64,000 nt of DNA from Pedobacter montanisoli (GTDB taxonomy: Bacteria > Bacteroidota > Bacteroidia > Sphingobacteriales > Sphingobacteriaceae): positions 310,001-374,000 of the forward strand of contig NZ_JALGBH010000002.1 in assembly GCF_022809115.1 (NCBI RefSeq). Reading direction: 5' to 3'. The position numbers were made by a program, and so were the translations under genes. The notes under the pieces were generated by a model. It had not been told where the DNA came from, made no database searches, and was given only the letters and a program-made list of their open reading frames with translations. Positions within the stretch are counted from its first letter, which is position 1. Every line of letters starts with the position of its first letter. Positions 39,306 through 61,614 of the stretch are shown here, piece after piece.

Positions 39306-39425
39306 GCTACAAAAATAATGGAAGTGTACGTTGCTGCACAGTAAATGTTCAATAACGGACACCTTATTTTTGATAATTGTATTTATGTTTCTGATTTACA
39401 GTTGTTTACTATTTTTTGTGTGTAT

Positions 39426-39441
39426 TGGCATAAACTTGGCA
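39426..39441 (+). promoter_or_regulatory. Sigma-54 promoter (-24/-12) of the exporter cluster
   Basis: TGGCAT, five bases, then TGGCA matches the TGGCAC-N5-TTGCA consensus with GG and GC exactly 12 bases apart (39427 and 39439). Transcription would start near 39452, so the adaptor start codon at 39468 fits better than the ATG at 39444. The divergent gene encodes a sigma-54 activator. Confidence 0.65.
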
Positions 39442-39467
39442 AAATGCAGGTAACGTTTAAAAAATTC

Positions 39468-40712
39468 ATGGACAAAGTAATAGAGAAGAAAAAATTTAAC
39501 CGCAAAACCATTATCATCATGGTTGCAGCTATTGTTTTTATTGCATTGGTTGCTTACGGATATCGCTTATCATTAAACAAGGTTTACAGGGTCGAAGCTG
39601 ATAAGATTACATTGAGTAAAGTAGAATATGGAGATTTTGAAGATGTGGTGCTGCTTAATGCCAGTGTTGTGCCTTTAACTTCTGTAATTGTAAGCTCAAG
39701 CGAAGGTGGAACAGTAGCACAAATCTTTACTGAAAACGGATCATTTGTAAAAGAGGGTACACCTTTATTAAGAATAGCAAATCCTAACGCTTTGGCAAGT
39801 TATACCTCTAGCGAAACCAGTATAACCGAACAAATTAACCAATTGCGTAAAGTACGCTTAGACCTAGAGCAGAACCAACGTGTTATGTTGCAAGATATGA
39901 TGGATATCGATAACAAGCTGCGTTCGGCTACCCGTAAATTTAAAGCAGATAGTATCTTATTTGAACGCAAGGTAATTACCAGAGAAGAATTTACCATGTC
40001 ATCGCAAGATTACGATTATTATAAAGGACGTAAATCACTTTTGCAGCAAGCCATTAAACAAGAGAACCAAAGTCGTGGAATGCAGTTGCAGCAGATCGAA
40101 AGCTCTATAGGTCGTATGAATGAAAGTTTAGAACTGATCAGACAAAATATAGAGAACATGACCATTAAAGCTCCGGTATCAGGAAGATTGTCGTCTTATG
40201 ATCCGGTAATTGGTAAATCTTATTCAGCTAACGAGATGTTGGGTAAAATTGATGTTCTGCAAGGTTATAAACTACAGGCTGGTGTGGATGAGTATTATAT
40301 CAACCGTGTTAAAGAAGGACAAAGTGCACATTGCGAGTTTGACGGACAGACTTACAAATTAAAAGTAAACAAAGTTATACCAGAAGTAACAGCCGGTCAG
40401 TTTCAGGTAGAAATGGTATTTGATGGCAAAGCGCCTGAGAACCTGAGAAGAGGTTTGTCTATGCAAACCAAATTAACACTTTCAGATAATAGTAAATCGT
40501 TGTTATTATCACAGGGGCAATTTTTCCAAAGTACCGGAGGCAACTGGGTATTTGTAGAAAAAGATGGAAAAGCAACCAAACGTAACGTAAAGATAGGACG
40601 TAAAAATTACCTGTATTATGAAGTTCTTGAAGGCTTGCAAAAAGGAGAGAACGTGGTAACCTCATCTTACGATTTGTTTAACCAGTACGATATGTTAGAA
40701 ATCACTAAATAA
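39468..40712 (+). CDS. Periplasmic adaptor, HlyD/RND-type membrane fusion protein
   Basis: The 414-residue protein has one N-terminal membrane helix (KTIIIMVAAIVFIALVAYGY). A split lipoyl domain follows (SSSEGGTVAQIFTENGSFVKEGTPLLRI, then TIKAPVSGRLSSY). Between the halves lies a helical hairpin of about 120 residues with several RMNESLELI-type coiled-coil stretches that would reach an outer-membrane TolC channel. The C-terminus has beta-barrel and membrane-proximal parts ending with GLQKGENVVTSSYDLFNQYD. It probably links the ABC permeases that follow to the outer membrane. It is the first gene after the sigma-54 promoter. Confidence 0.85.
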   Translation: MDKVIEKKKFNRKTIIIMVAAIVFIALVAYGYRLSLNKVYRVEADKITLSKVEYGDFEDVVLLNASVVPLTSVIVSSSEGGTVAQIFTENGSFVKEGTPLLRIANPNALASYTSSETSITEQINQLRKVRLDLEQNQRVMLQDMMDIDNKLRSATRKFKADSILFERKVITREEFTMSSQDYDYYKGRKSLLQQAIKQENQSRGMQLQQIESSIGRMNESLELIRQNIENMTIKAPVSGRLSSYDPVIGKSYSANEMLGKIDVLQGYKLQAGVDEYYINRVKEGQSAHCEFDGQTYKLKVNKVIPEVTAGQFQVEMVFDGKAPENLRRGLSMQTKLTLSDNSKSLLLSQGQFFQSTGGNWVFVEKDGKATKRNVKIGRKNYLYYEVLEGLQKGENVVTSSYDLFNQYDMLEITK

Positions 40713-40748
40713 ACCAAATAAACCAAAGGATAATTTTAGGTTGGTTAA

Positions 40749-40776
40749 GCCCTGAATCAGGTGCGTTGAACAGGGC
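40749..40776 (+). other. Hairpin between adaptor and ATPase genes
   Basis: GCCCTG at 40749-40754 pairs with CAGGGC at 40771-40776 across 16 bases. No T-run follows, so it is more likely an mRNA stability or partial read-through element than a terminator. Confidence 0.35.
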
Positions 40777-40822
40777 GCCAACTTATTATACCTTGAATAA
40801 ATGAAATTAAAAACCTTAAAAT

Positions 40823-41521
40823 ATGATCACAATAGAGAATCTGGAAAAGATATACAAAACCGAAGAAATTGAAACCACTGCGTTGAATGGTATTAATTTC
40901 AAAATTAGAGAAGGTGAATTTGTTTCCATTATGGGCCCTTCTGGATGCGGTAAATCTACTTTATTAAATGTTATGGGTTTATTGGATAAACCCGAAAAAG
41001 GAAGCTACAAGTTTATAGATACCGAGTTGCTTACCTTAAATGATAAGGAGCGTTCTAATTTCAGAAAAAGAAACATGGGCTTTGTATTCCAGAACTTTAA
41101 CCTTATTGATGAATTGAGTGTATTTGAGAACATTGAACTGCCATTGATCTACAATAAAGTAGCTGCTTCTGAGCGTAAAAAGTTGGTGAACGAGATCATT
41201 GAACGTATGAATATTGTTAACCGTAAAGGGCATTTTCCTCAACAATTATCAGGCGGACAGCAACAACGTGTAGCTGTAGCAAGAGCGCTTGTAACTAAAC
41301 CTAAACTGATTTTAGCCGATGAGCCTACTGGTAACTTAGACAGTAGCCATGGTAACGAGGTAATGGAATTACTATGCGAGTTGAATGAGCAGGGAACAAC
41401 TATTGTAATGGTAACCCACTCAAGCCACGATGCCAGCTTCTCAGACAGGATCATCAACCTTAAAGATGGTCATGTAATTTCTGAAAAACTAAATAAAGGT
41501 AAAACAGAAGAACTGATCTAA
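40823..41521 (+). CDS. ABC transporter ATPase, MacB/LolD type (first ATPase)
   Basis: The 232-residue nucleotide-binding subunit has all catalytic motifs: Walker A GPSGCGKST at 38-46, Q-loop VFQNFNLIDELSV, signature LSGGQQQRVAVARAL from 142, Walker B LILADE, canonical D-loop NLDS at 171-174 and switch His199 in MVTHS. The closest families are the ATPases of MacB, LolD and FtsE transporters. It lies 110 bases after the adaptor gene and 78 bases before the first permease, and can be expected to drive several of the permeases. Confidence 0.93.
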   Translation: MITIENLEKIYKTEEIETTALNGINFKIREGEFVSIMGPSGCGKSTLLNVMGLLDKPEKGSYKFIDTELLTLNDKERSNFRKRNMGFVFQNFNLIDELSVFENIELPLIYNKVAASERKKLVNEIIERMNIVNRKGHFPQQLSGGQQQRVAVARALVTKPKLILADEPTGNLDSSHGNEVMELLCELNEQGTTIVMVTHSSHDASFSDRIINLKDGHVISEKLNKGKTEELI

Positions 41522-41599
41522 AGTTTGAAGTAGAAAGCTTAAAGCCCAAAGCTAACAACGAACAACGACAGACGAACAACGAATAAACAAACAACACAC
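41522..41599 (+). other. Low-complexity spacer before permease 1
   Basis: The 78 bases are purine-rich and then a tract of AACGAACAACGACAGACGAA and similar words with almost no T, ending right before the ATG. No Shine-Dalgarno sequence is seen. Confidence 0.6.
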
Positions 41600-43972
41600 A
41601 TGTTCAAACTAAACCTCAAAATCGCTTTGCGTAACTTATGGAAGAACAAAACTGCTTCTTTCATAAACATTACCGGCCTGGCCATAGGTTTGGCTGCCTG
41701 CTTAATGTTGCTGCTATATGTAAGCTATGAGTGGAATTTTGACAAGCAGGCCAAAAATTCGGCAGACGTTTATACTACAATGACTAATATACCCGGCGAT
41801 GACGGGAAAATAGCAGGAACTTTTGAAGGCTCTGTAAGTGCATTTGGCCCCGCTATTAAACAGGATATTCCTGAAATTGAGTATATGAGCCGCATGGATT
41901 ATGGCAGGAAGAGCCTGATAGCTAACGGAACCAATTCCTTTAAACGTAATTCAAAATTTGCCGAGTCTGATATTTTTAAAATGTATGATTATACATTTAT
42001 TCAGGGTAATCCTGAAACTGCACTGAAAGATCTAAACTCAGTGGTGCTTACAGCAAGCACGGCAAAAATATTGTTTGGTACCACAGATGTATTGAATAAA
42101 ACTGTTCGTTTTCAGGATAAACTGGATTTAAACGTTACGGCAGTAATTAAAGACCAGCCAGATAATAGCTCAAATAAATTTGATTATCTCATGCCCTGGT
42201 CATTGTTGGGTACGCTCGATCCAATGGCACAAACGCTCAATTGGGAGAGTTATAGCTATGTTACTTTGGTTAGATTAAAACCGGGTACTGATGCGGAGTT
42301 GGTTAACCAAAAAATTAAAGAGGTCATCAGAAAAAATACCAGAGATAGCTTTCAATCGCAGTCTTTATTTCCTTTAAGCAAGCTACATTTATACAGTAAG
42401 TTTGAAAACGGCAAAAGTGTTGGGGGTGCTATTGAGCAGATCAGGTTATTTATGGGGCTTGCTTTTGGCATTTTATTAATTGCCTGTATCAATTTCATGA
42501 ACATGGCTACTGCCAAATCAGAAAAACGGGCAAAAGAAGTAGGAATAAAGAAAACAATAGGTGCAAACCGGGTTTCGTTAATTACGCAATTCTTAACCGA
42601 GTCAATGCTGATGGCTTTTGTTGCGGTAATTATTGCAATTGTATTGCTAGAGGTTAGTTTGCCAACTTTTAACGGCTTACTGAACATTAAGTTAAGTATG
42701 CACTATTTTAATGCTTTAAATTGGGTAGGCATTTTAGGTATTGTGTTTATAACCGGTTTAATAGCAGGAAGCTATCCCGCTTTTTATCTATCGGCTTTTA
42801 ACCCAATTCAGAACCTTAAACGCAAAATTAGAGGTAGCGGGTGGGCTAAAATCAGCTTAAGACAGGTTTTGGTAGTAGCTCAGTTTTGTTTTGCTATCAT
42901 TCTGATCATTTCAACCTTGGTTATTTACCGTCAGATACAATATGTAAAAAACAGACCTGTGGGTTTTAATATCAACGCTTTGGTAGAAATGCCTCAAGAC
43001 GGAGAACTTAAAACCAAATATGATGTCTTAAAAAGTGAACTGTTGAAATCTGGAGCTGTTACTTCTATGTTCCAGTCGTCGGTAAGTCTTTCGCATCATG
43101 GAGCTAATTTTTTGGATATCAAATGGGAAGGCATGACACAGCCTGAAAACAGGGTAATGTTTAATCAGGTTGCTACTTCTTATGATTTCCTTAAAACCAA
43201 TGGCATTAAACTGTTAGAAGGAAGAGATTTTTCAGAACAGTTCGCTTCAGATTCGCTGGGTGTTCTGGTAAGTGCTTCAGCAGTGAAAACATTTGGTTAC
43301 AAAGATCCGCTGGGTAAAACGATTACCGTTTTTGGTAGTAAACTTAATATTATAGGGGTTTTTGATGACTACGTATGGGATTCGCCTTATAAAGCCAATA
43401 ACCCAATGGTTGTGTTTTTAGATCCAAACCGTAGAGGCACTATTACGATGCGTTTAAACGAAACACGTACTTTGGCCGATAACATCAATACCATTAGTCA
43501 GATCGCAAAATCACTAAATCCTGCCTATCCGGTTGAGATCAATTTCCTTAACAATGTATATGCAGAAAAATACAATGCCGAAAAAACCTTAGGCATTTTG
43601 GCTAACCTTTTTGGCGGACTGGCCATTTTCGTTTCCTGTTTAGGTTTATTTGGTCTGGTGGCTTACAGCGCAGAACAACGTACCAAAGAGTTTGGAGTGC
43701 GTAAAGTACTGGGTGCATCAGTAGCTAACCTGATGCAGCTTTTATCCGTTTCGTTTGTAAAAATGATTTTGGTTGCTGTGGTTATAGCCGTACCATTGAG
43801 TTACTACGCCATGAACAAATGGTTAAGCCAGTTTGAGTTCCATACAGAAATCAGTTGGTGGATTGTACCGGTTGCTGCATTCGGAACCCTGTCTTTAGCA
43901 TTGATCACTATTAGTTTTCAGGCTTTTAAATCGGCCAAGGCCAACCCGGTTGATGCTTTGAAATACGAGTAG
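41600..43972 (+). CDS. ABC permease, FtsX/MacB type, copy 1 of 7
   Basis: The 790-residue protein is an internal duplication of a four-helix MacB-like unit. Each half has one helix, a large periplasmic domain (about residues 43-280 and 450-665) and three further helices. The cytoplasmic coupling motifs are RAKEVGIKKTIGA near 310 and RTKEFGVRKVLGA near 695. The start MFKLNLKIALRNLWKNK and the tail NPVDALKYE recur in all seven copies. Copies 1 and 2 are the closest to each other in the first half (LLLYVSYEW, LYSKFENGKSVGG). The substrate is unknown; relatives export peptides, lipoproteins or antibiotics. Confidence 0.9.
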   Translation: MFKLNLKIALRNLWKNKTASFINITGLAIGLAACLMLLLYVSYEWNFDKQAKNSADVYTTMTNIPGDDGKIAGTFEGSVSAFGPAIKQDIPEIEYMSRMDYGRKSLIANGTNSFKRNSKFAESDIFKMYDYTFIQGNPETALKDLNSVVLTASTAKILFGTTDVLNKTVRFQDKLDLNVTAVIKDQPDNSSNKFDYLMPWSLLGTLDPMAQTLNWESYSYVTLVRLKPGTDAELVNQKIKEVIRKNTRDSFQSQSLFPLSKLHLYSKFENGKSVGGAIEQIRLFMGLAFGILLIACINFMNMATAKSEKRAKEVGIKKTIGANRVSLITQFLTESMLMAFVAVIIAIVLLEVSLPTFNGLLNIKLSMHYFNALNWVGILGIVFITGLIAGSYPAFYLSAFNPIQNLKRKIRGSGWAKISLRQVLVVAQFCFAIILIISTLVIYRQIQYVKNRPVGFNINALVEMPQDGELKTKYDVLKSELLKSGAVTSMFQSSVSLSHHGANFLDIKWEGMTQPENRVMFNQVATSYDFLKTNGIKLLEGRDFSEQFASDSLGVLVSASAVKTFGYKDPLGKTITVFGSKLNIIGVFDDYVWDSPYKANNPMVVFLDPNRRGTITMRLNETRTLADNINTISQIAKSLNPAYPVEINFLNNVYAEKYNAEKTLGILANLFGGLAIFVSCLGLFGLVAYSAEQRTKEFGVRKVLGASVANLMQLLSVSFVKMILVAVVIAVPLSYYAMNKWLSQFEFHTEISWWIVPVAAFGTLSLALITISFQAFKSAKANPVDALKYE

Positions 43973-44141
43973 TTTGAAGACGGAAGTCCGGAGACAGAAG
44001 TCCGGAGACAGAAGTCAGAAGTCAGAAGTCAGAAGACTGAAAGACGACCAACGAACAAATAAATGACAAGCAAACAACGACAAGCGAACAACGAAATAAA
44101 CGACAAACGAACAACGGAAAAACGAATAAACAAACACACAC
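43973..44141 (+). repeat. Spacer between permeases 1 and 2 with short tandem repeats
   Basis: Two exact copies of GAAGTCCGGAGACA lie at 43983-43996 and 43997-44010. Three copies of GAAGTCA follow at 44011-44031. The rest is A/C-rich sequence of the ACGAACAACGA type up to CACACACATG, with few T. Confidence 0.7.
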
Positions 44142-46505
44142 ATGTTTAAACTGAATTTAAAAATAGCTTTACGTAACCTTTGGAAAAATAAAGGTTTTTC
44201 ACTGATCAATATTGGCGGTTTGGCCATTGGTTTAGCCAGTTGTATGATATTGCTGCTTTATGTAGCTTATGAATGGAGCTATGACAAGCAATTTACCAAT
44301 TACGACAAGACCTATGTAGTCTATAACAACCAGAAAACGCCTACGCAAACGTTTAGTTTTGTGGCCGTTTCAGGAGTAATGGAAAAAGAAGTTAGAGAAA
44401 AAGTTAACGGCGTAGCTGCGGTTACCCGTGTAGCCTATCCAGAAGAAACTCTTCTTTCATATAATAACAACAATATTAAGAAAGAAGTTGTTTCTGCCGA
44501 TCCAGACTTTTTAAAGATCTTTGATTATAAGGTACTTAAAGGCAATCCAAAAGATCTGTTAAAAAACCCTGATGGAGTTGTTCTTACCGAAACGCTTGCC
44601 AAAATTCTTTTTAATACAGAAGATCCTATTGGTAAAGTGATCAAATACGATAATAAAGAACCTCTTAAAGTAGAAGCAGTTATCCAAGATTTACCTAAAA
44701 ACTCATCCATCAGTGCCGATATGATCACTTCGTGGGCATTGTACGAAAAAATAAATCCATGGGTAAAAAACAGCGGATGGGGCAATAATTATTGCATGTT
44801 GTTTATCCAATTAAAGGATAATAAGTTCTTTAATACGGCTAATAATCATCTAAAAGGAATGATAAAGGCCAGTAATCCAGAAACGAACAACGAAGCCATG
44901 ATGTTCCCTTTAAAAAAATGGCATCTGTACAGCAAATTTGAAAACGGAGTTTCTGTTGGTGGTAAAATAGATAACCTTAGAATATTCCTGATCTTGGCAT
45001 TTAGCATCTTGCTGATCGCCTGTATCAATTTTATGAATCTTTCAACGGCAAAATCAGAGAAAAGAGCGAGAGAAGTTGGGGTGCGCAAGGCCATAGGATC
45101 TACTAGGGGAAATCTTGTTGGGCAGTTTATGTTAGAATCGGTTCTAATTGCCCTGTTCAGTACATTGGTAGCATTTGTGTTGATAGAAGTCAGCTTACCT
45201 TATTTTAACAATTTGTTGGGCATTACACTTAAAATCAATTATACAGATGTTTATTTCTGGACAGTTTTTATAGGCTTGGCATTAATTACCGGAATAGTTT
45301 CAGGAAGCTATCCAGCATTTTATTTATCGTCTTTTGAACCTGTTAAAGTACTTAAAGGTTTTAAGCTTGGCGGTAGCGGATCACTCTCTGTACGTAAGTT
45401 TTTGGTGGTGTTTCAGTTTGCTTTTTCTGCCTGTTTAATTATATGTACGGTGGTAATTTACCAGCAGTTAACTTATATCAAAAACAAACCTATAGGTTAT
45501 AACAGCGTAAACTTGCTAGAAATAAAAGCAGAGGGAGAGTTAGACAATGAGGGCAAGCGCAAGGTTTTAAAAGACTTGTTGATTAAATCGGGCGCAATAA
45601 CCGATTTTACAGAATACAGCACTTCTTTAACCGGATCGGGTAACAATACCTATGGTTTTAGCTGGCCTGGCAAAAATGAAAAAGACATTGTGTTGGTAAA
45701 TTTTAGGTTTACCAATTTAGATTTTACCAAAACCACAGGCATGAGCCTTTTGCAAGGTAGAGACTTTGCCAAAGAATTTAAAGATACGGCAAGTGTTATG
45801 GTAAACGAAGCCATGGTTAAAACAATGGGAATGGAAAAACCTGTTGGGCAAATCGTTTCTTGGGGCGATGACAAATACAAAATAATAGGGGTACTTAACG
45901 ATTATGTAATGGGCAGCCCGTATAAAAAACCTATGCCCTTAGTCGTAATGCAAAACCCAAGTGCGGCTAATACAATTATTGTAAGACTTAACCCTGAAAA
46001 TAATGCTACAAACTCGGTAGAAAAAATAAAAAACATCATTAAAGAAGTTAATCCAGCATATCCAGCTGAAATCAAGTTTGTGAGCGAAAAATTTGAGAGT
46101 AAACTGAATGATGAGAAACTGTTAGGAACACTGGCCAACTGGTTTGGCGGCTTGGCCATATTTATCTCTTGTTTAGGTTTATTAGGTCTGGCTCTGTATA
46201 TGGCTACACAGCGTAAAAAAGAAATCAGTATCCGTAAAGTACTGGGCGCAAGTACAGGCAACATTCTTACTTTGTTAAATAAGGAGTTTATTGTTCTGGT
46301 AATTATTGCTAATGCGGTGGCTTTTCCACTGGCCTATATCATTATTAATAAATGGCTTATCGGTTTTGAGTACCATGTTAGTTTATCGGTTATTCCTTTC
46401 CTGATCGCCATCAGTCTTTCTATTCTTGTGGCCATCCTTACGGTAAGTATCCAGTCGGTAAAAGTGGCTAAATCAAATCCGGTAGATGCGCTAAAATATG
46501 AATAG
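44142..46505 (+). CDS. ABC permease, FtsX/MacB type, copy 2 of 7
   Basis: The 787-residue copy has coupling motifs KRAREVGVRKAIGS near residue 308 and RKKEISIRKVLGA near 689. Its first periplasmic domain begins YDKQFTNYDKTYVVYNNQKT and differs from copy 1 in most positions, although the framework phrases GSYPAFYLSSFEPVKVLKG and LHLYSKFENGVSVGG-like sequence are shared. The second periplasmic domain has SLLQGRDFAKEFKDTASVMV. No frameshift or missing helix is seen, so the gene appears functional. Confidence 0.9.
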   Translation: MFKLNLKIALRNLWKNKGFSLINIGGLAIGLASCMILLLYVAYEWSYDKQFTNYDKTYVVYNNQKTPTQTFSFVAVSGVMEKEVREKVNGVAAVTRVAYPEETLLSYNNNNIKKEVVSADPDFLKIFDYKVLKGNPKDLLKNPDGVVLTETLAKILFNTEDPIGKVIKYDNKEPLKVEAVIQDLPKNSSISADMITSWALYEKINPWVKNSGWGNNYCMLFIQLKDNKFFNTANNHLKGMIKASNPETNNEAMMFPLKKWHLYSKFENGVSVGGKIDNLRIFLILAFSILLIACINFMNLSTAKSEKRAREVGVRKAIGSTRGNLVGQFMLESVLIALFSTLVAFVLIEVSLPYFNNLLGITLKINYTDVYFWTVFIGLALITGIVSGSYPAFYLSSFEPVKVLKGFKLGGSGSLSVRKFLVVFQFAFSACLIICTVVIYQQLTYIKNKPIGYNSVNLLEIKAEGELDNEGKRKVLKDLLIKSGAITDFTEYSTSLTGSGNNTYGFSWPGKNEKDIVLVNFRFTNLDFTKTTGMSLLQGRDFAKEFKDTASVMVNEAMVKTMGMEKPVGQIVSWGDDKYKIIGVLNDYVMGSPYKKPMPLVVMQNPSAANTIIVRLNPENNATNSVEKIKNIIKEVNPAYPAEIKFVSEKFESKLNDEKLLGTLANWFGGLAIFISCLGLLGLALYMATQRKKEISIRKVLGASTGNILTLLNKEFIVLVIIANAVAFPLAYIIINKWLIGFEYHVSLSVIPFLIAISLSILVAILTVSIQSVKVAKSNPVDALKYE

Positions 46506-46653
46506 ATAAAGATGTAAAGTCTGGAGACGGAAGTCCGAAGCCAAAAATTAAAGGTCGGGAGTCCGAAAAGACAACCAACGATAAGCGAATAACAATCAAC
46601 GAAAGACGAAAAACGACCGATAAAAAACGAGTAAAAAACACATAACCACAAAA
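46506..46653 (+). other. Spacer between permeases 2 and 3
   Basis: Just after the stop lies TAGATAAAGATGTAAAGTCTG, a block nearly repeated after permease 4 (51494 onward). It is followed by GGAAGTCCGAAGCC and an A/C/G-rich ACCAACGATAAGCGAATAAC-like tract up to the next ATG. Confidence 0.6.
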
Positions 46654-49023
46654 ATGTTTAAACTCAATTTAAAAATAGCCTTGCGTAACCTTTGGAAAAA
46701 TAAAGGGATTACAGCCATAAATATTGGTGGATTAGCTATTGCTTTGGCAGCCTTTGTTTTGGTCATGTTATATTTTACTTATGAAACTAGTTTTGATAAG
46801 GAAAATCCGAATTATGATCATGTTTATATTGTTGGAATAAATTATCCAGAATTTAAAACTGATTATGCCCCTGCGCCATTTGCAGTAGCTATCAAACAAA
46901 ATTTTCCTGAAGTAGATAGAGTTGGCCTTGTTAAGGGTAGCTCTTTTGAGTTGACAATTAAAAATGGGGGAAATACACTTTTTACGAGTAAAATTCTCAC
47001 TGTTGATTGCAATGCGGCCAAAATTCTCAACATCAACCCCAGTGGCGGTCTTGTAAAACCATCTGGAGATGCAGAAAGACTTAATTATTTAAGTAATGAA
47101 AGCATGAAAATACTCTTTCCTGATAAAAAGGATAATAAACCGGAGATAGTTGGATTTGGAGCAAGTAATTTAGGGATAACCGGAATAATAGCTGGGTCAA
47201 TAAAAAATGATCCTCATTCTAACTTTAATTTCGATGGTGTTTCTATTAGCAATAAATTAGGTAATCGTGATAACTATGACATGAACGATTATACCATTTA
47301 TCTACAGCTAAAACCTGGCGTTAATGTATTAAGTTTAGAACGAAAAATCACTGATCTCTATAGAGCAGAATTACTAAAAAATAAAGTAGGGGGAAGTAAG
47401 GATGAACTAAAAGGCATTTCTACATTTTTAGATCCACTATCGAGTTTGCATTTAAAGCCAAAAGCTGGTAATAACACTCCATATAAAATACTCATTGCGA
47501 TTTCAGTTTTGGGCTTGTTGATTTTGCTAATAGCCTGCATTAATTTTACTAACCTGAGTATTGCACAAGCCACTAAGCGTGCCAAAGAAGTTGGTGTTAA
47601 AAAAGTTATGGGAGCTTTTCGTTTCCAATTGATCACACAATTTCTTATTGAGATTTTTATGCAATGTTTTGCTGCTATCATTTTGGCTTTAATTTTAGCA
47701 GAATTGGTGTTACCAAGCTTCAATACACTGTTTCAAGTACAATTATCGATTTGGCATTTGGGTAACGATTTGTTTTGGCAACTACCACTAATTTTATCTG
47801 TAATTACACTTATTGCAGGTATTTATCCGGCAATAATTTTATCTGGGTTTAAACCTATATTGGTTTTAAAAGGTAATTTTTCTACTAGCAAACAAAGTTA
47901 TGTGTTGCGTAATAGTTTGATAGTTTTTCAGTTCAGTATTGCTGTTGTTTTCATGATAAGTTTACTTATTATCAATTCGCAATTAAAGTATATGCGAAGT
48001 CAGGATTTAGGTTTTACAGCAGATGAAGTGGTTTATATTAAAAACATTTCCATTTTTAACGATCCTTTAAAATTTGAACCAGTTAGAGAAAAAATTCTAA
48101 AAATTCCGGGTATAAAATCAGCAACCGTAGCCACTTTTGTACCAAGTGGTCAAAATGGAGTAAATAGTTACGTGGCCAATGGTATAAAAGCCAATATTGA
48201 TTTTGTGGGCGTAGATTTTGATTACTTCGAGACTTTGGATATTAAGCTAAAAAAAGGGCGTTTTTTTTCTCGTGAATTTAAAACAGATACTGCAAACTCT
48301 GCTGTAATAAATGAAAGCGCCATGGTTAAATATGGTATAAAAAATCCAATCGGACAAACTATAAGAGGTTGCAATATAGATTATAAAATTGTTGGGGTTG
48401 TTAAAGATTTTAAAACACAAGGTTTTGAAAATATTGTTCAACCTACTATTTATACCATTAAAGAACCATGCGGAGGGAACAAAATGCAAATCATGCTAAA
48501 AATTGAACAGAAGATGATGGCTGGTGCATTAGCTACATTGAAAGCACAATGGTCTGATATTAATAAGCAAGATGGTGAAGATTTCAGATATCTGTTTCTG
48601 GATGAAATGTATGGTAAGCTTTTTAAAAAGCAAGAGCAATTGCAAACGGTCTTTTTTGCGGCAGCGCTGCTAACTATTTTTATTGCCATTTTAGGACTCT
48701 TTGCCTTCGTAAAATATATCACTAATGTTAGAATCAAAGAAATAGCACTTCGCAAAATATTAGGTGCAAGTAACTTTCAGATTATGAAATTAATTAATTC
48801 TTCATTCTTTGTTATGGTATTAATTGCCAATTTAATATCCTGGCCACTTGCCTATGTTTTAACCAAAAAATGGCTTTCAACTTTTGCTTATCGAATTGAT
48901 ATGCCCGTTTTGCCTTTTATGTTAAGTGCAGTGGTAACTGTTTTATTAACCATTATTACGGTAAGCATACAAACCAATAAAGCTGTGAAAGCTAAACCTG
49001 TTGATGCTCTGAAATATGAATAG
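46654..49023 (+). CDS. ABC permease, FtsX/MacB type, copy 3 of 7
   Basis: The 789-residue copy has coupling motifs KRAKEVGVKKVMGA near residue 308 and RIKEIALRKILGA near 692. It forms a close pair with copy 4: identical length, and shared phrases such as NPNYDHVYIVG, FTNLSIAQATKRAKEVGVKK, DYKIVGVVKDFKTQGFEN and KPVDALKYE. Its DNA looks more AT-rich than copy 4 (21 versus 27 G or C in one comparable 60-base sample), so it may have a different recent history. Membrane helices are complete. Confidence 0.9.
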   Translation: MFKLNLKIALRNLWKNKGITAINIGGLAIALAAFVLVMLYFTYETSFDKENPNYDHVYIVGINYPEFKTDYAPAPFAVAIKQNFPEVDRVGLVKGSSFELTIKNGGNTLFTSKILTVDCNAAKILNINPSGGLVKPSGDAERLNYLSNESMKILFPDKKDNKPEIVGFGASNLGITGIIAGSIKNDPHSNFNFDGVSISNKLGNRDNYDMNDYTIYLQLKPGVNVLSLERKITDLYRAELLKNKVGGSKDELKGISTFLDPLSSLHLKPKAGNNTPYKILIAISVLGLLILLIACINFTNLSIAQATKRAKEVGVKKVMGAFRFQLITQFLIEIFMQCFAAIILALILAELVLPSFNTLFQVQLSIWHLGNDLFWQLPLILSVITLIAGIYPAIILSGFKPILVLKGNFSTSKQSYVLRNSLIVFQFSIAVVFMISLLIINSQLKYMRSQDLGFTADEVVYIKNISIFNDPLKFEPVREKILKIPGIKSATVATFVPSGQNGVNSYVANGIKANIDFVGVDFDYFETLDIKLKKGRFFSREFKTDTANSAVINESAMVKYGIKNPIGQTIRGCNIDYKIVGVVKDFKTQGFENIVQPTIYTIKEPCGGNKMQIMLKIEQKMMAGALATLKAQWSDINKQDGEDFRYLFLDEMYGKLFKKQEQLQTVFFAAALLTIFIAILGLFAFVKYITNVRIKEIALRKILGASNFQIMKLINSSFFVMVLIANLISWPLAYVLTKKWLSTFAYRIDMPVLPFMLSAVVTVLLTIITVSIQTNKAVKAKPVDALKYE

Positions 49024-49126
49024 CCTGAAGACGGAAGTCTAAAGCCTAAAACAAACAAAAAACGAATAATGACCAATGAAAGACGAATAATAAACATCGA
49101 GTAAAACACCATAAACCACAAAAAAA
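49024..49126 (+). other. Spacer between permeases 3 and 4
   Basis: It holds the shared GAAGACGGAAGTCTAAAGCC block and then A-rich words such as AAAACGAATAATGACC, ending CCACAAAAAAAATG. It is the most A-rich of the spacers. Confidence 0.6.
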
Positions 49127-51496: not shown

Positions 51497-51573
51497 ATAA
51501 AGATGTGAAGTCTGAAGACGGAAGTCCGAAGCCTAAAACAAACGACAAACGAACAATAACAAACGAACAGACA
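51497..51573 (+). other. Spacer between permease 4 and the S41-like gene
   Basis: The block after the stop repeats the one after permease 2 (GATAAAGATGTGAAGTCTGA, then GGAAGTCCGAAGCC), followed by ACGACAAACGAACAATAAC. The S41-like gene therefore carries the same leader type as the permeases. Confidence 0.6.
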
Positions 51574-53043
51574 ATGAAACATAAATTTTTAATACTAACC
51601 TTACTGATGATTGGATTGGGATTTTTTAACGGTTATGCGCAAAGCTGTAACTGTGAAGAAAATTTCAATTGGGTAAAGAAAACGTTTGAAGAGAACGATG
51701 CCGGGTTTAAGTATGCTTTAAGTGTTAAAGGCAAACAGGCATACGAAGATCATAACAAAAGAATTTTAGAGAAGATTAAAACAGCTAAAACGCTGAACGA
51801 ATGTGCACCTATACTTTATGAATGGTTGGAGTTTTTCCGTTCGGGGCATATTGCCATTAGGTTAACAAACCAAAATTCAAATAATAATACCAATACAACT
51901 GCAGTTGCAACCAGCTCGGCAAATTATGATAATTGGGAAACGCTGAAGGTTAATCTGCCTGAATTTGAAAAATATCTGGCTAATAAAAAAGAACAGGATC
52001 TGGAAGGCATATGGGTTACCGAACCTTATAAAATAGGAATCAAGAAAGTAAAGAATGATTATATCGGATTTATCATCGAATCAGGTGCTGATACATGGAA
52101 AAAAGATCAAGTAAAACTTAAAGTTACCCATAAGAACAATAAGCTTTACTCTACTTTTTATATGCGTGATCATAGTGCGGTAGAATCAGATAAGGTTGAA
52201 CCTTTTGGTAAGAATACATTGCAATTGGGAAATACTGCCTTAAAAAGAGTATATCCCAAGTTAGAAGAGGATAAAGATATTAAAGCCTATTCGAGAATAA
52301 TAGAGGCCAGAAAACCTTTTATGGAGAAACTGGATGATAAGACCGTTTATATCAGAATCCCGTCGTTTAACGTAAGCAGTAAAAAAGATATAGACAGTGT
52401 ATTGAACTTACACAGAGCAACCATTTTAAAAACAGAAAATCTGATACTGGATATCCGTTACGGTACAGGCGGTAGCGATTCGAGTTTTGGAGAAATCATT
52501 CCTTTTATTTACACCAACCCCATAAGAACAGTAGGAGTAGAATATTACTCAACAAAACTGAATAACCAACGTATGCTCGATTTTATCAGTAAACCTGAGT
52601 ATGGTTTTGATGAAGATGATAAAAAATGGGCAAAAAAAGCATACGATACACTTGAAAAACACTTAGGAACCTTTATGTCCTTAAATAAATATCCCGTTTC
52701 AGAAGAAAAGCTGGATACTATACATGAATACCCTAAAAATGTAGGCATCATTATCAATAAAAATAATGGAAGCACAGATGAACAGTTTCTGTTAGCAGCC
52801 AAACAAAGTAAAAAAGTAAAACTTTTTGGTACCACAACTCACGGCGTGCTCGATATCTCAAACATGTATTTTGTACCCTCACCATGCAAAGAATTTGAAC
52901 TGGGTTATTCGTTAAGCAGAAGCAAAAGAATACCTGATTTCCCGATAGATGAAATAGGCATACAGCCCGATTTTTATATAGATGAATCTATTCCTAAATA
53001 CAAATGGGTAGAATTTGTAAGCGGGGTACTGAATAATAAATAG
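51574..53043 (+). CDS. Secreted S41-peptidase-like protein
   Basis: The 489-residue protein starts with a signal peptide (FLILTLLMIGLGFFNGYAQ). A cysteine pair CNC and a helical N-terminal part follow, then a C-terminal region like S41 proteases: FFRSGHIAIRL, VYIRIPSFN, LILDIRYGTGGSDSSFGEII and NGSTDEQFLLAAKQSKKVKL with candidate nucleophile Ser400. The usual lysine in the last motif is not evident, so activity is uncertain. The ATG at 51574 is chosen over a frame starting in the spacer. It is the only non-transporter gene inside the array. Confidence 0.75.
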   Translation: MKHKFLILTLLMIGLGFFNGYAQSCNCEENFNWVKKTFEENDAGFKYALSVKGKQAYEDHNKRILEKIKTAKTLNECAPILYEWLEFFRSGHIAIRLTNQNSNNNTNTTAVATSSANYDNWETLKVNLPEFEKYLANKKEQDLEGIWVTEPYKIGIKKVKNDYIGFIIESGADTWKKDQVKLKVTHKNNKLYSTFYMRDHSAVESDKVEPFGKNTLQLGNTALKRVYPKLEEDKDIKAYSRIIEARKPFMEKLDDKTVYIRIPSFNVSSKKDIDSVLNLHRATILKTENLILDIRYGTGGSDSSFGEIIPFIYTNPIRTVGVEYYSTKLNNQRMLDFISKPEYGFDEDDKKWAKKAYDTLEKHLGTFMSLNKYPVSEEKLDTIHEYPKNVGIIINKNNGSTDEQFLLAAKQSKKVKLFGTTTHGVLDISNMYFVPSPCKEFELGYSLSRSKRIPDFPIDEIGIQPDFYIDESIPKYKWVEFVSGVLNNK

Positions 53044-53130: not shown

Positions 53131-55521
53131 ATGTTTAAACTGAACTTAAAAATAGCCTTACGCAATCTTTGGAAAAACAAGACCTATACCATTATTAATA
53201 TTTTGGGTCTTTCTATAGGAATGGCCTGTTGTATCCTCATTTTCATGTTTATCAATTACCAGATGAGCTATGATAAAGGCTACAAAAATGAAGACCAGAT
53301 TTATCGTGTAGTTTCTACCTGGAATTATGCTGATGGTAATAATTTTTCTTCACAGGGTGTCCCACTGCCATTAGCACCTGCTTTGCGCAATGATTTTTCG
53401 GCACAACTCGAAAAGGTTTCAGCTATACAGCAGGCATTTGGTATTGTCAAAATAAATGATGCTAAAGGCAATGAAAAATTAAAAACACAAGAGCGTACAT
53501 TTTATATAGAGCCAGAGTTTTTTGATATTTTCGATTTCAAGTGGTTAGCCGGGCAGGCAGATGAACTGAAAAATCCAAATACAACCATTCTAACTAAAGA
53601 AACAGCTACCCGATTTTTTGGTGACTGGAAAAACGCAGTTGGCAAATCATTTAACTACCAGAATAATGAAAACTACAAGGTAATTGGGGTAATTGACGAC
53701 CTACCTAAAAACAGCTCATTCCCTATAAGAATTGTTCTTTCGTATAAAAATTATAAGAACAAAAATATGGATAGATGGGGTTCTTGCTCTTCATCTTCAG
53801 AATGTTATGTTTTGCTAAAGAAAGGTGTAGATATCAATAGCCTAAGCGCCCCAATGGCTCAGTTTGTAAATAAATATTATACAGATAAGGGCCCGGGTAA
53901 AGAGGGACATCATTTTCAGGCTTTAAGCCAGATCCATTACGATCCTGAATATGGAAATTTTGCAGGTAATACCATGCCTATGAAAGAAATATATGGCCTA
54001 ATGGTAATAGGAGCGTTTCTTATGCTTACAGCTTGTATCAACTTTATCAATCTGGCTACAGCTCAATCGATCAGTCGTTCAAAAGAAATAGGCGTAAGAA
54101 AGGTAATGGGAAGTATGCGCAAGCAATTGATCGTGCAATTCCTTACAGAAACTTTTTCTTTAACCCTTATTGCTTTGCTATTTGCCTGTGTGTTAACAGA
54201 AGCTGCTTTACCGGGCATGCGCAACCTGTTCAACATCGATATGGCTTTCAATATCTTTCAATATCCGTCTATCTTTTTATTTATGGTAGCCTTAACGGTT
54301 GTGGTAGCTTGTTTGTCTGGTTTTTATCCTGCATTGGTGATGTCGGGTTTTAGCCCGGCTTTAGCTATTAAAAACAAAGTAAAAGCCAATACGGGTGGTT
54401 TAGGACTGAGAAAAGTGCTTGTGGTGGTACAGTTTGCCCTTACTGTGGTACTTATTATCGGCACTTTGTTTATCATCAATCAGATGAAATACATCAGAGA
54501 GCGGCCTATAGGCTTTAATCCTTCGGCCATTGCGTTGGTAGATATTCCTAATGATAGTATCAGCAGAACAAGATTTGACGTATTAAAATCGCGTATTATG
54601 CAAGTGCCGGGAGTAAAAAATCTGACTTTGTGTATGTCTGCACCTTCATCATCTAATAATAATGAAAGCAATTTCTCTTATAACAGCTCAAAAGATGCCG
54701 ATTTCCAGGTTAATACTAAAGTTGGCGACGAAAATTACTTTAAAACATTTGGGCTGGATTTTGTAGCCGGCAGAGCTTTCAGTAAAAGTGATACCATAAG
54801 AGAATATGTGGTAAATGAAACCTTACTGAAACGATTAAATGTACCTAACCCGCAGGAAGCTGTAGGTAAAAAGCTGAACATTAGCGGCAGATCAGGACAA
54901 ATTGTGGGTGTGGTTAAAGATTTTAATAATAATAGCCTGCGCGATGGTATTTCACCAATAGCCATCAGTACCTATAAAAAAGGCTATTATACCATGGCTG
55001 TTAAGCTTGATAGTAAGCAGATTATGCAGGGTATGGCAGATATCCAGAAAATATGGAATAATGTATTTCCTGAATATGTATATAGTTCTTCATTTATGGA
55101 TGATGAGATTAACAGTTATTACGAGAGCGAAAAAATTATGGGTACTTTATTTAAAGTGTTTGCAGGGGTAATTATTTTCATCTCATTCATAGGTTTATTT
55201 GGGTTGATTTCTTTTGTGGCTGCACAACGAACCAAAGAAGTGGCTATTAGGAGAGTGTTAGGTGCTTCTACATTTGAGCTGGTTAAAATGCTAAATGGTT
55301 CATTTCTGCTTATGGTTTTCATTGCAAATCTGGTGGCCTGGCCTTTGGCTTATGTATTTGTGTCGAAATGGCTCAATGGCTTTACCTATCGTATCAATGT
55401 GAGTATATGGCCTTTTGTTATTGCCATGTGCATTTCTTTAATCATCACTTTGATTACAGTATCGATGCGCTCGTTAAGAGCAGCTAAAGCCAATGCCATT
55501 GATGCCCTTAAATATGAATAA
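53131..55521 (+). CDS. ABC permease, FtsX/MacB type, copy 5 of 7
   Basis: The 796-residue copy is divergent from copies 1-4. Its first helix reads GLSIGMACCILIFMFINYQMSY, coupling motifs are SRSKEIGVRKVMGS near 315 and RTKEVAIRRVLGA near 700, and the tail is NAIDALKYE instead of NPVDALKYE. The first periplasmic domain contains a distinct cysteine-containing stretch WGSCSSSSECYVLLKKG. It directly precedes the second ATPase gene, so it may be the partner of that ATPase. Confidence 0.9.
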   Translation: MFKLNLKIALRNLWKNKTYTIINILGLSIGMACCILIFMFINYQMSYDKGYKNEDQIYRVVSTWNYADGNNFSSQGVPLPLAPALRNDFSAQLEKVSAIQQAFGIVKINDAKGNEKLKTQERTFYIEPEFFDIFDFKWLAGQADELKNPNTTILTKETATRFFGDWKNAVGKSFNYQNNENYKVIGVIDDLPKNSSFPIRIVLSYKNYKNKNMDRWGSCSSSSECYVLLKKGVDINSLSAPMAQFVNKYYTDKGPGKEGHHFQALSQIHYDPEYGNFAGNTMPMKEIYGLMVIGAFLMLTACINFINLATAQSISRSKEIGVRKVMGSMRKQLIVQFLTETFSLTLIALLFACVLTEAALPGMRNLFNIDMAFNIFQYPSIFLFMVALTVVVACLSGFYPALVMSGFSPALAIKNKVKANTGGLGLRKVLVVVQFALTVVLIIGTLFIINQMKYIRERPIGFNPSAIALVDIPNDSISRTRFDVLKSRIMQVPGVKNLTLCMSAPSSSNNNESNFSYNSSKDADFQVNTKVGDENYFKTFGLDFVAGRAFSKSDTIREYVVNETLLKRLNVPNPQEAVGKKLNISGRSGQIVGVVKDFNNNSLRDGISPIAISTYKKGYYTMAVKLDSKQIMQGMADIQKIWNNVFPEYVYSSSFMDDEINSYYESEKIMGTLFKVFAGVIIFISFIGLFGLISFVAAQRTKEVAIRRVLGASTFELVKMLNGSFLLMVFIANLVAWPLAYVFVSKWLNGFTYRINVSIWPFVIAMCISLIITLITVSMRSLRAAKANAIDALKYE

Positions 55522-55634
55522 TAATGAATTCAGAAGTAGAGAGTTAAGAGTCGAAAGACCGAAAGATAAGCATCAAACAAGCCTAACCAACAAACCAACA
55601 ACCAATCAACCAATCAACGAATAACAATAACAAT
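55522..55634 (+). other. Spacer between permease 5 and the second ATPase
   Basis: AGAGTTAAGAGTCGAAAGACCG near 55541 resembles AGAGTTAAAAGTCGGAAG at 20450. The remainder is CAACCAATCAACCAATCAAC, a four-base-offset tandem pattern, then AACAATAACAATATG. Confidence 0.6.
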
Positions 55635-56315
55635 ATGATAAAACTGGAAAATATAGAAAAATACTACGCTAACAAAGGAGTTAAAAACTATGTTTTGCGA
55701 CACGTTACCACCCAGATCAATAAAGGAGAATTTGTATCCATTATGGGGCCATCAGGAGCAGGAAAATCTACCTTATTGAATATCATGGGTATGTTGGAAG
55801 AACCCACATACGGCAGTTATTTTTTTAATGAAGAAGATGTGACCCATTTGGGCGAGCGTAAGAAAATAGAATTATACCGTAACCATATAGGCTTTGTTTT
55901 TCAGGCTTATCACCTTATAGATGAGATGACGGTGTATGAAAATATCGAAGCACCCTTGCTGTATAAGAACGTGAGCAGTGGAGAACGTAAAAGCCGCATA
56001 GCCGATCTTTTAGATAGATTTAATATCGTGGCTAAGAAAGATCTGTTTCCTAATCAACTTTCGGGCGGACAACAACAGTTAGTAGGTATAGCCAGAGCTT
56101 TGGCAGCACAGCCGGCCATTATACTGGCAGATGAACCTACAGGCAATTTGCAGTCTGTGCAGGCAGAGGAGATTATGGAACTCTTTAAAAAATTGAATAG
56201 AGAAGACGGTATAACAATAGTACAGGTTACCCATTCTGAGAAAAATGCAGGATATGGAAACAGAATCATAACTATTGAAGACGGAGTGATCAAAGAAGAT
56301 TTGAAAATCGGATAA
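55635..56315 (+). CDS. ABC transporter ATPase with altered D-loop (second ATPase)
   Basis: The 226-residue subunit has Walker A GPSGAGKST, Q-loop VFQAYHLIDEMTV, Walker B IILADE and switch His200 in VTH, like the first ATPase. Two motif changes stand out. The signature LSGGQQQLVGIARAL has Leu149 where most have Arg, and the D-loop is NLQS with Gln173 instead of Asp. The D-loop Asp contacts the opposite nucleotide site in dimers, so this subunit could form an asymmetric pair or hydrolyse slowly. It lies between permeases 5 and 6. Confidence 0.9.
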   Translation: MIKLENIEKYYANKGVKNYVLRHVTTQINKGEFVSIMGPSGAGKSTLLNIMGMLEEPTYGSYFFNEEDVTHLGERKKIELYRNHIGFVFQAYHLIDEMTVYENIEAPLLYKNVSSGERKSRIADLLDRFNIVAKKDLFPNQLSGGQQQLVGIARALAAQPAIILADEPTGNLQSVQAEEIMELFKKLNREDGITIVQVTHSEKNAGYGNRIITIEDGVIKEDLKIG

Positions 56316-56386
56316 TTGACGTGAAGCAATTTGAGAACTAAAAAACATTAAATGACCTTTCTGTTAACCCATAACCAAACAAGCAT

Positions 56387-58804: not shown

Positions 58805-58831
58805 GAGTTATCAAAAAGATCTATTATCATG

Positions 58832-58856
58832 TTACATTGAGCTTGTCTAAATGTAA
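58832..58856. repeat. Palindrome TTACATT / AATGTAA with GAGCTTGTCTA loop
   Basis: Seven-base arms at 58832-58838 and 58850-58856 enclose an 11-base loop GAGCTTGTCTA. The same layout with other arms occurs at 61583-61607. Confidence 0.7.
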
Positions 58857-58903
58857 ATAATGTCTAATCAAATTAATGACCAATAGACCACCAGCCAATA
58901 ATT

Positions 58904-61378
58904 ATGTTTAAACTAAATTTAAAAATAGCGTTACGCAACCTATGGAAAAATAAGGCTTATACAGCCATAAATATATTAGGGCTATCATTAGGTTTGGCGG
59001 GCTTTATGATGATTTTAACCTATGTAAACAGGGAAACGAGTTATGATAAATGGAACGAAAAACTGTACCGCACTTACAGGGTAGGCAGGGAAGAAGTTCA
59101 GAATGGAGCTGAAAGCAAAGGGCCAAAAATCAAAAGGTTGTTTGCTAAAATGCTGAATGAACAGTTTCACGAAGTAGAAAACGTATCTGTAGGCCATTTA
59201 GAAAGCAGACGATATTTATACGGAACAGAAGATATCTCAAAGCCTGCCGAAAGGTCAGTAACCGTAACGGTAGATAGTAATTTTTTGAAAGTTTATCCGC
59301 TTACACCTGTAAAAGGAAGCATAATTGGATTTAATACAGCCCCTAATGCAGTTGCCATAAGCTTAAGTTGTGCCAAAAAGTATTTCGGCGATGAAGATCC
59401 CATAGGTAAAACTTTGATAAGAAAAGGAGGATTTAATTTTAAGGATGAAAATCTGGTGGTTAAAGCGGTGTGGGATGACCAAAAGCAACCATCGGTCTTT
59501 AAATTTGATGTCATTACAAAGTTAGATGAGAAAGTATATGGCGATCAGTTGTTGGGAACCTCATTTTCTACCTTATTTACTTTACGCAAAAATGCAGATC
59601 ATAAACAGTTATTTGAAAAAATAAATAATCAATACCTTATAGAAAGAGCCAAACTGGCAAGTAAGAACAGCAGTGCTGCATTTAATCCGAGTATAGAAGA
59701 AGCTAAAGAAATCTTAAAGAAAGAAGAGGGTATTACCAATCATAAAGTAATTATAGAATCCGTTCCTGATATCAACCTTACTTCATATTATTCATCAGAC
59801 AATCCAAAGCAAAAGAGTATTTATATACTGGCAACCTTAGCCGGATTTCTAATTTTTATTTCGTGCGTAAACTATACCAACATGGCTTTGGTTTTAGCCC
59901 AGAGCAGGGCTAAAGAAGTGGGTGTTAAAAAGGTTTTAGGATGTTTCAGGGCAGACCTCACCAAACAGTTTCTATTAGAAACGGCAGTTCAATGTATAGG
60001 TGCGTTTTTAATTGCATTGATGTTGGTAGAACTCTTTATGCCATCTGTAAACCTGATGATTAATGATAACCTCAAATTTTTTGATGGTTACAATACCTTA
60101 AAAGTATTGCAGCAGTCTTTATTGCTGTTAGCAGGTGTAATTATTATAGCCGGTTTATATCCTGCGTTAATTTTATCTGGTTATGCACCGGTTAAAGTGC
60201 TTAAAGGCAATCTTAGTACATCCAAAAAAATTGGCGCTTTCAGAAAAGTGCTGATCGTTTCGCAGTTTGCTATTGCCGCATCGTTGGCCATTAGTTTTTT
60301 GGTGGTTTATGCCCAATTGCAATACATGAAAAATAAGGATTTAGGTATAGAACCCAAACTCTTGGTAAATCTAGGTATTGCAGATTTCAAGCATAGAAAT
60401 CTTAATCCTAATGAATTTGAAAGCATCAAGCAAAGATTGTTGACCATTAAAGGCGTGGAAGACGTTTCAAGGTCTGTTGACATGCCGATTAACGATTCAG
60501 GCTTTGAAGATGATATCGAATTTAAAGGCATTAAACAGAAAGTAGATGCTAAATACACAGATCCTAACTATTTATCGGTTGTAAAAGGAAAAATTATAGC
60601 CGGAAGAGATTTTTCAGCTCAAAAAATGAGTACAGATACCCTCAATAGTGTAATCATTAACCAAACGCTTTACAATAAATTGAGCTTATCTGATCGTTTG
60701 GACCAGCAGCTCGGAATTTACGTGAATGATGAGCTTAAACAGTTTAATGTAATAGGCGTGGTAAAAGATATACAGGTGTATGGTTTCGAAAGTAAAATCA
60801 ATCCTACTATTTATATGGCCAATGATTTTAAATTTCATTGGCGTCAGAATGTTCTTATCAGAATAAACGGTCATAACATAACTGAAACCATTAGCGATAT
60901 CAAGAAAACTTGGAGACAAATAGAACCAGGAGATGAACCAAATATCAATTTTATAGATGAAGTAGCGGCGAAAATGAATTTAAGCTATGAAGTATCGGGC
61001 AGACTGATCTTTTTATTTGGTTCTTTAACGCTGTTGGTATCGCTGTTCGGTTTATTGAGCATCGCTGCTTACAGCGCAAAAATAAGGCTTAAAGAAATCG
61101 CCGTAAGAAGAGTATTGGGCGCCTCTACAGGCTCGTTACTCAAATTACTGAATAAAGATTTGGTAAAGCTCGTTCTCATGGCTAATATCATTGCCGATGT
61201 GCTCGCTTATATCTATATGGATAGCTGGTTCAGGATTTTTGTGTATCGCATTGAAATGCCTTTTATGCTTTTCCTGAGTGTAAATCTGGTTTCGGTCTTA
61301 TTGGCTATCGCTATTGTGAGTATGCAAAGTATCAGAGCTGTAAAAGCCGATCCGGTTAAGATGCTTAAGTACGAGTAA
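58904..61378 (+). CDS. ABC permease, FtsX/MacB type, copy 7 of 7
   Basis: The 824-residue copy is the longest and most divergent. Its first periplasmic domain carries an additional segment (about residues 225-275, SSAAFNPSIEEAKEILKKEE). The coupling motifs are SRAKEVGVKKVLGC near 335 and RLKEIAVRRVLGA near 727. The tail is DPVKMLKYE. The preceding spacer is not of the ACGAAC type but contains a palindrome of the genome-wide repeat family. It ends the array; palindromic repeats follow. Confidence 0.9.
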   Translation: MFKLNLKIALRNLWKNKAYTAINILGLSLGLAGFMMILTYVNRETSYDKWNEKLYRTYRVGREEVQNGAESKGPKIKRLFAKMLNEQFHEVENVSVGHLESRRYLYGTEDISKPAERSVTVTVDSNFLKVYPLTPVKGSIIGFNTAPNAVAISLSCAKKYFGDEDPIGKTLIRKGGFNFKDENLVVKAVWDDQKQPSVFKFDVITKLDEKVYGDQLLGTSFSTLFTLRKNADHKQLFEKINNQYLIERAKLASKNSSAAFNPSIEEAKEILKKEEGITNHKVIIESVPDINLTSYYSSDNPKQKSIYILATLAGFLIFISCVNYTNMALVLAQSRAKEVGVKKVLGCFRADLTKQFLLETAVQCIGAFLIALMLVELFMPSVNLMINDNLKFFDGYNTLKVLQQSLLLLAGVIIIAGLYPALILSGYAPVKVLKGNLSTSKKIGAFRKVLIVSQFAIAASLAISFLVVYAQLQYMKNKDLGIEPKLLVNLGIADFKHRNLNPNEFESIKQRLLTIKGVEDVSRSVDMPINDSGFEDDIEFKGIKQKVDAKYTDPNYLSVVKGKIIAGRDFSAQKMSTDTLNSVIINQTLYNKLSLSDRLDQQLGIYVNDELKQFNVIGVVKDIQVYGFESKINPTIYMANDFKFHWRQNVLIRINGHNITETISDIKKTWRQIEPGDEPNINFIDEVAAKMNLSYEVSGRLIFLFGSLTLLVSLFGLLSIAAYSAKIRLKEIAVRRVLGASTGSLLKLLNKDLVKLVLMANIIADVLAYIYMDSWFRIFVYRIEMPFMLFLSVNLVSVLLAIAIVSMQSIRAVKADPVKMLKYE

Positions 61379-61607: not shown

Positions 61608-61614
61608 TTAATTA

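Follow-up and report, generated by a model that had tools for sequence, protein, structure and literature searches.

A sigma-54-controlled Pedobacter locus in which many duplicated permeases probably share one adaptor and ATPase pair

The stretch analysed here (the window) comprises 64,000 nucleotides of Pedobacter montanisoli contig NZ_JALGBH010000002.1 (positions 310,001 to 374,000), from a genome of 3.29 Mb in 3 contigs whose nearest named relatives are Pedobacter species, including one locus with a 98% match to the adaptor. The window carries a tandem array of seven FtsX/MacB-type permease genes together with one periplasmic adaptor and two ATPases. MacB-type exporters are described as having one permease per ATPase. 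We put at about 60% the probability that this array is a single sigma-54-controlled operon for an envelope exporter resembling MacAB and DarBCD (a type VII ATP-binding cassette, or ABC, transporter), in which many pseudo-dimeric permeases share the adaptor and the ATPase pair.

Organisation and control of the permease array

All seven permease open reading frames are intact, lie on the plus strand and encode proteins of 787-824 aa that have residues 1-17 in common and end in LKYE. This bears out the first-pass annotation of the window, which had described seven intact one-strand permeases with a shared 17-residue start and a KYE tail, and the single HlyD-type adaptor, two MacB/LolD-type ATPases and S41-like protein that it listed are also present. 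In window coordinates, the locus reads as follows.

36521-37879, minus strand: sensor histidine kinase (HisKA/HATPase_c) with two adjacent membrane helices and no periplasmic sensor domain (intramembrane-sensing type), a topology repeated in orthologous loci
37935-39305, minus strand: NtrC-family response regulator (receiver, sigma-54 AAA+ domain, Fis helix-turn-helix), 456 aa with the start taken from congeners
39325-39361, unstranded: paired palindromic putative activator site TGTACGTTGCTGCACA-GTAAA-TGTTCAATAACGGACA, kept in the 23-locus Pedobacter alignment
39425-39439, plus strand: sigma-54-type -24/-12 element TTGGCATAAACTTGG, the sole copy without mismatch in the window
39468-40712, plus strand: HlyD/MacA-type periplasmic adaptor; best named family DarC, below its cut-off
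40823-41521, plus strand: ATPase 1 (nucleotide-binding domain 1, NBD1), DarD/MacB/LolD-like, with LSGGQQQR signature and GNLDS D-loop
41600-43972, plus strand: permease p1, duplicated FtsX/MacB type, 8 predicted membrane helices, AlphaFold2 model
44142-46505, plus strand: permease p2
46654-49023, plus strand: permease p3
49127-51496, plus strand: permease p4
51574-53043, plus strand: secreted S41-peptidase-like protein (PF03572), inserted in this species and probably outside the system
53131-55521, plus strand: permease p5
55635-56315, plus strand: ATPase 2 (NBD2), with LSGGQQQL signature and GNLQS D-loop
56387-58804, plus strand: permease p6
58904-61378, plus strand: permease p7

The starts of the regulator (39305) and the kinase (37879) are corrected ones, and the adaptor most likely begins at 39468 (414 aa, matching congeners). 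Position 39426, which the first-pass annotation had taken as the left edge of the array, lands on the sigma-54-type element.

The intergenic regions between regulator and adaptor from 23 Pedobacter loci share two aligned features: paired palindromes (TGTNCR-N4-YGNACA, two copies five bases apart) and a promoter element, TTGGCAYANNCTTGG, located ~30-45 bases upstream of the adaptor start. Its -12 part reads TTGG in Pedobacter, as against the TTGC consensus. Under a strict pattern, the palindrome pair was found in 66 and the promoter element in 64 of 80 related loci, and inspection of other families revealed similar palindromes and TGGCAY elements in the same interval. The paired site occurs once in the whole window genome with up to 2 mismatches allowed; a scan of the window detected the promoter element as a single copy, with no internal sigma-54 site in the array, and no terminator-like site was seen on the plus strand between array genes. 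With one rpoN gene in the genome, an activator bearing a sigma-54 AAA+ domain, a -24/-12 element and an upstream activator site, the locus has the parts expected of a sigma-54/NtrC operon, and the earlier suggestion of a single sigma-54 switch is upheld by the conserved promoter element and paired site. The array would accordingly be read as one transcript.

Intramembrane-sensing kinases of the BceS type have two membrane helices and no periplasmic domain. The kinase has this topology, with a very short extracellular loop, in the loci examined, and induction of the operon by envelope stress appears plausible.

The array also contains repetitive DNA. Purine-rich repetitive leaders (GAAGACGGAAGTC and AACGACCAACGAAC units) lie ahead of several permeases (41512-41600, 43973-44141, 46506-46653, 49024-49126) and at 51497-51573, while tandem 20-base units (TTGTCATATTGAGCTTGTCC) occur 3' of the array (61523-61612), with a related copy between p6 and p7 (58830-58861). 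At 61715-62515 lies a gene for a Peripla_BP_2 (BtuF-like) protein in which no signal peptide is obvious; it adjoins the array in most Pedobacter genomes examined.

Conservation of the locus

A search of Bacteroidota genomes for the same gene order, proposed in the first-pass annotation, was borne out. The order kinase-regulator, then adaptor-NBD1-permeases with or without NBD2, recurs throughout Pedobacter with 2-10 permeases, and also in 80 close loci and in many Bacteroidota families. Of 296 genomes of the class, 56 have an orthologous adaptor (E below 1e-60). Around most of these adaptors the layout is seen again, with between one and seven or more permeases; in a few, the stretch read has an adaptor and ATPase but no permease. 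By far the largest array met, in a genome of another family of the class (G506:C2:88797-185675, family 84), has a single adaptor and ATPase followed by 25 same-strand duplicated permeases across 97 kb, a count made from gene positions, with the sequence read for the first 20 kb. Orthologous permease groups are kept at ~50-77% identity between species.

Pedobacter genomes additionally contain scattered permeases, nearly all of them without a neighbouring ATPase or adaptor and mostly with the same ends as the array. In one congener (G002), an array permease is broken into two frames and looks like a pseudogene (L092; 12675-15045 in the joined locus L092+L093).

Permease architecture and shared ends

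The permeases are duplicated in the structural sense, each chain being a pseudo-dimer with eight predicted membrane helices, and two MacB_PCD and two FtsX stretches were detected in each of the four permeases scanned. Each half has an FtsX transmembrane domain whose first two helices are separated by a periplasmic domain, which places the permeases in type VII (MacB/FtsX/Lol). The AlphaFold2 model of p1 (pLDDT, the predicted local distance difference test, 90.9; predicted template modelling score, pTM, 0.87) has membrane helices at 17-45, 277-309, 324-361, 372-398, 420-450, 659-693, 708-742 and 755-779, an assignment that is our own and is based on the model helices and the MacB layout. It further contains coupling helices at 311-319 and 695-703, a cytoplasmic N-terminal helix at 2-15, and short helices at 402-408 and 783-789. 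Sequence comparison aligned half of the permease chain with MacB from the linker helix onward, and a fold search returned YbbP as the closest full-length structure, followed by MacB, BceB and LolC/E. Elsewhere in the window genome we found no duplicated permease, only single ones of ~411-425 aa.

Pairwise identity among the seven permeases is 29-35%, mostly ~31%, the exceptions being p1/p2 (45%) and p3/p4 (62%). Mean pairwise identity reaches 87% in the first 20 alignment columns and 84% in the last 7, and the periplasmic regions are the least conserved part (mostly ~0.1-0.3 identity). Given the positions of the terminal helices in the p1 model, the two shared ends correspond to the N-terminal and the last helix. 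The N-terminal amphipathic helix of MacB joins the ATPase, which is also contacted by the C-terminal minor coupling helix (PMC5985334). The first-pass annotation had proposed that the shared N-terminus and coupling motifs let one or two ATPases serve seven permeases. The shared ends stand, on comparative evidence, whereas the internal coupling motifs (RAKEVG.KK..GA) are common to the FtsX family as a whole and do not discriminate. The exact 17-residue N-terminal pattern is present in 26 of 36 sampled Pedobacter genomes and in none of 165 genomes from the family's other genera, so the shared start is not due to chance.

To quantify locus-specificity, we compared agreement within and between loci in every column of the permease alignment (~780), using permease pairs below 42% identity. 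The penultimate residue is the most locus-specific column of all, with an agreement of 0.68 within and 0.23 between loci (z 8.1); it agrees in 173 of 264 pairs, compared with a mean of 62 and a maximum of 87 after shuffling. Columns 786 and 788 follow, and N-terminal positions 5, 10 and 3 also score high. The penultimate residue ranked first in the discovery set (the window and 18 loci), in 36 independent loci fetched later, and in a set with one locus per family. When its changes were counted on trees built without the permease ends, it required 41 on the NBD1 tree and 63 on the permease core tree (shuffles ~90 on either); in 255 comparably variable columns the permease and NBD1 trees differed by a median of -15, and in the next best column by +3. 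The residue thus tracks the ATPase more closely than the permease that carries it.

Shared ancestry is not enough to account for the common ends, since monophyly of the Pedobacter array permeases was rejected (approximately unbiased test, p-AU 0.0026; quick tree, LG+G4). Recent gene conversion was also considered and rejected: codon identity at identical residues is 0.54/0.58 at these terminal tags, 0.42 elsewhere and 0.47/0.55 between genomes, far from a conversion tract. Two genomes each have two loci with different tails (ALKYE and mostly LKTE in G561; YLKFE and ALRYE/SLRYE in G518); such a difference within one genome speaks against a factor acting throughout the cell, for example a protease that reads C-termini. 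From these comparisons, the discriminating part of the permeases appears to be the extreme C-terminus and, less strongly, the N-terminal helix, and the pattern supports one ATPase set serving many permeases.

An asymmetric ATPase pair

NBD1 carries LSGGQQQR and GNLD(S/T) motifs, and NBD2, wherever found, LSGGQQQ(L/I) and GNL(Q/H/N). Walker A, signature, Walker B and H-loop are intact in the ATPases, with the D-loop and the residue after the signature changed in NBD2 only. Because these substitutions are conserved across families, sequence comparison suggests that NBD1 and NBD2 form a conserved asymmetric pair and not two interchangeable motors. Each permease chain contains two FtsX halves and would therefore need two ATPase subunits, as in YbbAP, where two ATPase subunits sit on one duplicated permease (PMC12646458). 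Conservation of the NBD2 substitutions makes one NBD1 and one NBD2 the likeliest set, so that an ATPase1:ATPase2 heterodimer probably serves the permeases.

Outer-membrane channel and S41 gene

As the first-pass annotation had stated, no TolC gene lies in the array and the exit would be encoded elsewhere: the window genome has ~12 TolC or outer-membrane efflux protein (OEP) genes, all at other loci, and in four orthologous operons of other genomes or families such a gene follows the permeases or ATPase 2. TolC was also sought beside the Pedobacter array, where the congener neighbours checked were trehalose-phosphate, starch-synthase and GlgC-type genes.

The S41 gene, which had been taken to accompany the system, is indeed present, but it occurs in only 1 of 80 related loci and is absent from the other arrays read. 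It was rejected as a system component for lack of conservation and is a local insertion, probably outside the system. By eye, its product has a GH motif and apparently no lysine at the catalytic-lysine position of C-terminal processing proteases.

Relation to known systems

The darobactin exporter DarBCD (NCBIfam NF038008, NF038010, NF038007) is the best named match of the adaptor and both ATPases, and its permease is of the same duplicated type. Every score nevertheless falls under the curated cut-off (DarB 62-173 vs 700 bits, DarC 226 vs 450, DarD 290 and 258 vs 375), and DarBCD has a single permease beside darA/darE (PMC9055067), whereas many permeases are present here. We saw no darA-like precursor or darE-like radical-SAM gene among the array genes read, with no search aimed at either. 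DarBCD and the other named equivalogs are relatives of this system, not matches.

The array resembles MacAB-TolC in its MacA-type adaptor, its MacB-type periplasmic and FtsX domains, and the TolC genes of orthologous operons; it differs in having a separate ATPase chain, a fused pseudo-dimer permease and many permeases per ATPase pair. The adaptor scores 113 bits against TIGR01730 (cut-off 95), in line with an RND (resistance-nodulation-division)/MacA-type adaptor. The ADOP family (TIGR03434) is matched by p1, p3 and p5 over 4-803 of 803 positions and by p7 over its second part, at 240-343 bits for the array permeases against a cut-off of 622.3; unlike ADOP, the array permeases are accompanied by ATPases and an adaptor. 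YbbAP-TesA (PDB 9GE6) likewise combines one duplicated permease with two ATPase subunits, and YbbP is the top full-length fold match, yet YbbP spans the membrane with ten helices, works with a hydrolase and without an adaptor, and shows 15% identity. BceAB-BceS shares the placement of an FtsX-type ABC transporter next to an intramembrane-sensing kinase; here, in contrast, the regulator is of the NtrC/sigma-54 type, there is an adaptor, and the permeases have eight helices and two periplasmic domains.

Discussion

Type VII ABC transporters, MacA-like adaptors and NtrC-type control are already known kinds. What is new is a conserved locus under sigma-54 control built on many permeases per ATPase pair, together with a C-terminal residue specific to each locus; a description of these arrays, the tail pattern or the regulator site was not found in the open-licence subset of the literature.

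In our model, the kinase, lacking a periplasmic domain, would sense a membrane disturbance and phosphorylate the NtrC-type regulator, which would bind the paired palindrome and fire the single promoter ahead of the adaptor. The cytoplasmic N-terminal helix and the C-terminal minor coupling helix, with its locus-specific end residue, may then form a docking surface by which each permease set stays paired with the ATPases of its own locus. Because their periplasmic domains diverge, the pumps would each have a different substrate or partner, and the path would be completed by a TolC-type channel from another locus, as suggested by the orthologous operons that include one. Export is likely, presumably through the adaptor and a TolC channel. 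The first-pass annotation had envisaged a combinatorial exporter for peptides, lipoproteins or toxins; the shared ATPases find comparative support, while the substrate part is unproven, and we propose only with low confidence that the likeliest use is export of antimicrobial peptides, lipopeptides or damaged envelope components. A narrower and more tentative proposal, to which we give a little under even odds, is that in Bacteroidota the extreme C-terminus of these permeases acts as a locus-specific docking key by which an ATPase pair recognises its own pumps (2 to ~25, possibly including orphans elsewhere) through the minor coupling helix and penultimate residue.

Several observations weigh against this picture. 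The importance of the minor coupling helix for MacB activity is disputed (PMC10094684). N-terminal position 10 required 73 changes on either tree, and the N-terminal segment discriminates less outside Pedobacter. A specific NBD1 partner residue of the tail did not hold up: the top covarying pair, permease 789 and NBD1 224, ranked first of 98150 by corrected mutual information, was unstable in half-splits and vanished within tail classes, and is not claimed here (uncorrected mutual information between permease and NBD1 is confounded by ancestry). Many multi-permease loci have no NBD2 within the 20 kb read, so the heterodimer cannot be claimed for all. Lastly, one group of orphan permeases in Pedobacter (L162, L168, L181, L191), with MFQHHLLLIYRNF at the start and CLRDE or CLREE at the end, has ends unlike those of the array. 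As a separate observation, a locus of another family (L151) encodes a similar protein with a CLRDE tail directly behind an ATPase.

A fairly unlikely alternative to export is mechanotransmission, as in FtsEX or YbbAP-TesA, where each permease would drive or position a different periplasmic partner, the adaptor being just one of them. The closest full-length fold, YbbP, does partner the hydrolase TesA (PMC12646458), and a secreted hydrolase-like S41 gene lies within the array; that gene is not conserved, however, whereas the MacA/HlyD-type adaptor is the constant gene and TolC genes join the operon in other families. We also consider it unlikely that two separate transporters are merely adjacent, with NBD1 driving p1-p5 and NBD2 driving p6 and p7. 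In the window NBD2 lies immediately upstream of p6 and p7, and a few congeners have one or two permeases after it, but in many others no permease follows it (e.g. G001, G009, G011, G020, G004a, G018), p6-type permeases precede it in several, and all permeases have the same ends; the substitutions in its signature and D-loop, conserved across families, would moreover suit an NBD1 partner.

Two further readings concern the number of permeases. BceB-like sensor permeases could report flux or antibiotic capture to the kinase, their number reflecting many ligands, as the kinase topology and the presence of BceAB among the fold matches would allow. BceB, however, has ten helices, one large extracellular domain and no adaptor, while an adaptor is always present here; this explanation is improbable as a replacement for export, and BceB-like sensing could instead be added to it. 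Neutral birth and death of permease copies, with shared ends reflecting inheritance or gene conversion and no matching role, would fit the wide variation in copy number and at least one split copy in a congener. It appears decidedly improbable given that orthologous groups are retained between species, that the ends are common to non-monophyletic lineages, that synonymous codons at the tags are not homogenised, and that one column stands out in replication.

If exporter permeases do share an ATPase pair, 2-25 permeases per pair in a widespread sigma-54-controlled operon would change how MacB-type exporters are counted and annotated, and would suggest an energising route for orphan permeases. 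In group II energy-coupling factor (ECF) vitamin transporters, one energising module serves many interchangeable membrane subunits; their proteins are unrelated to those of the array, and they import where the array would export. Were the docking key true, the locus would be an exporter counterpart of this shared-energiser design and would account for the energy supply of duplicated 'orphan' permeases. The locus also offers a defined envelope-stress system, presumably inducible, in a genus of soil and water bacteria.

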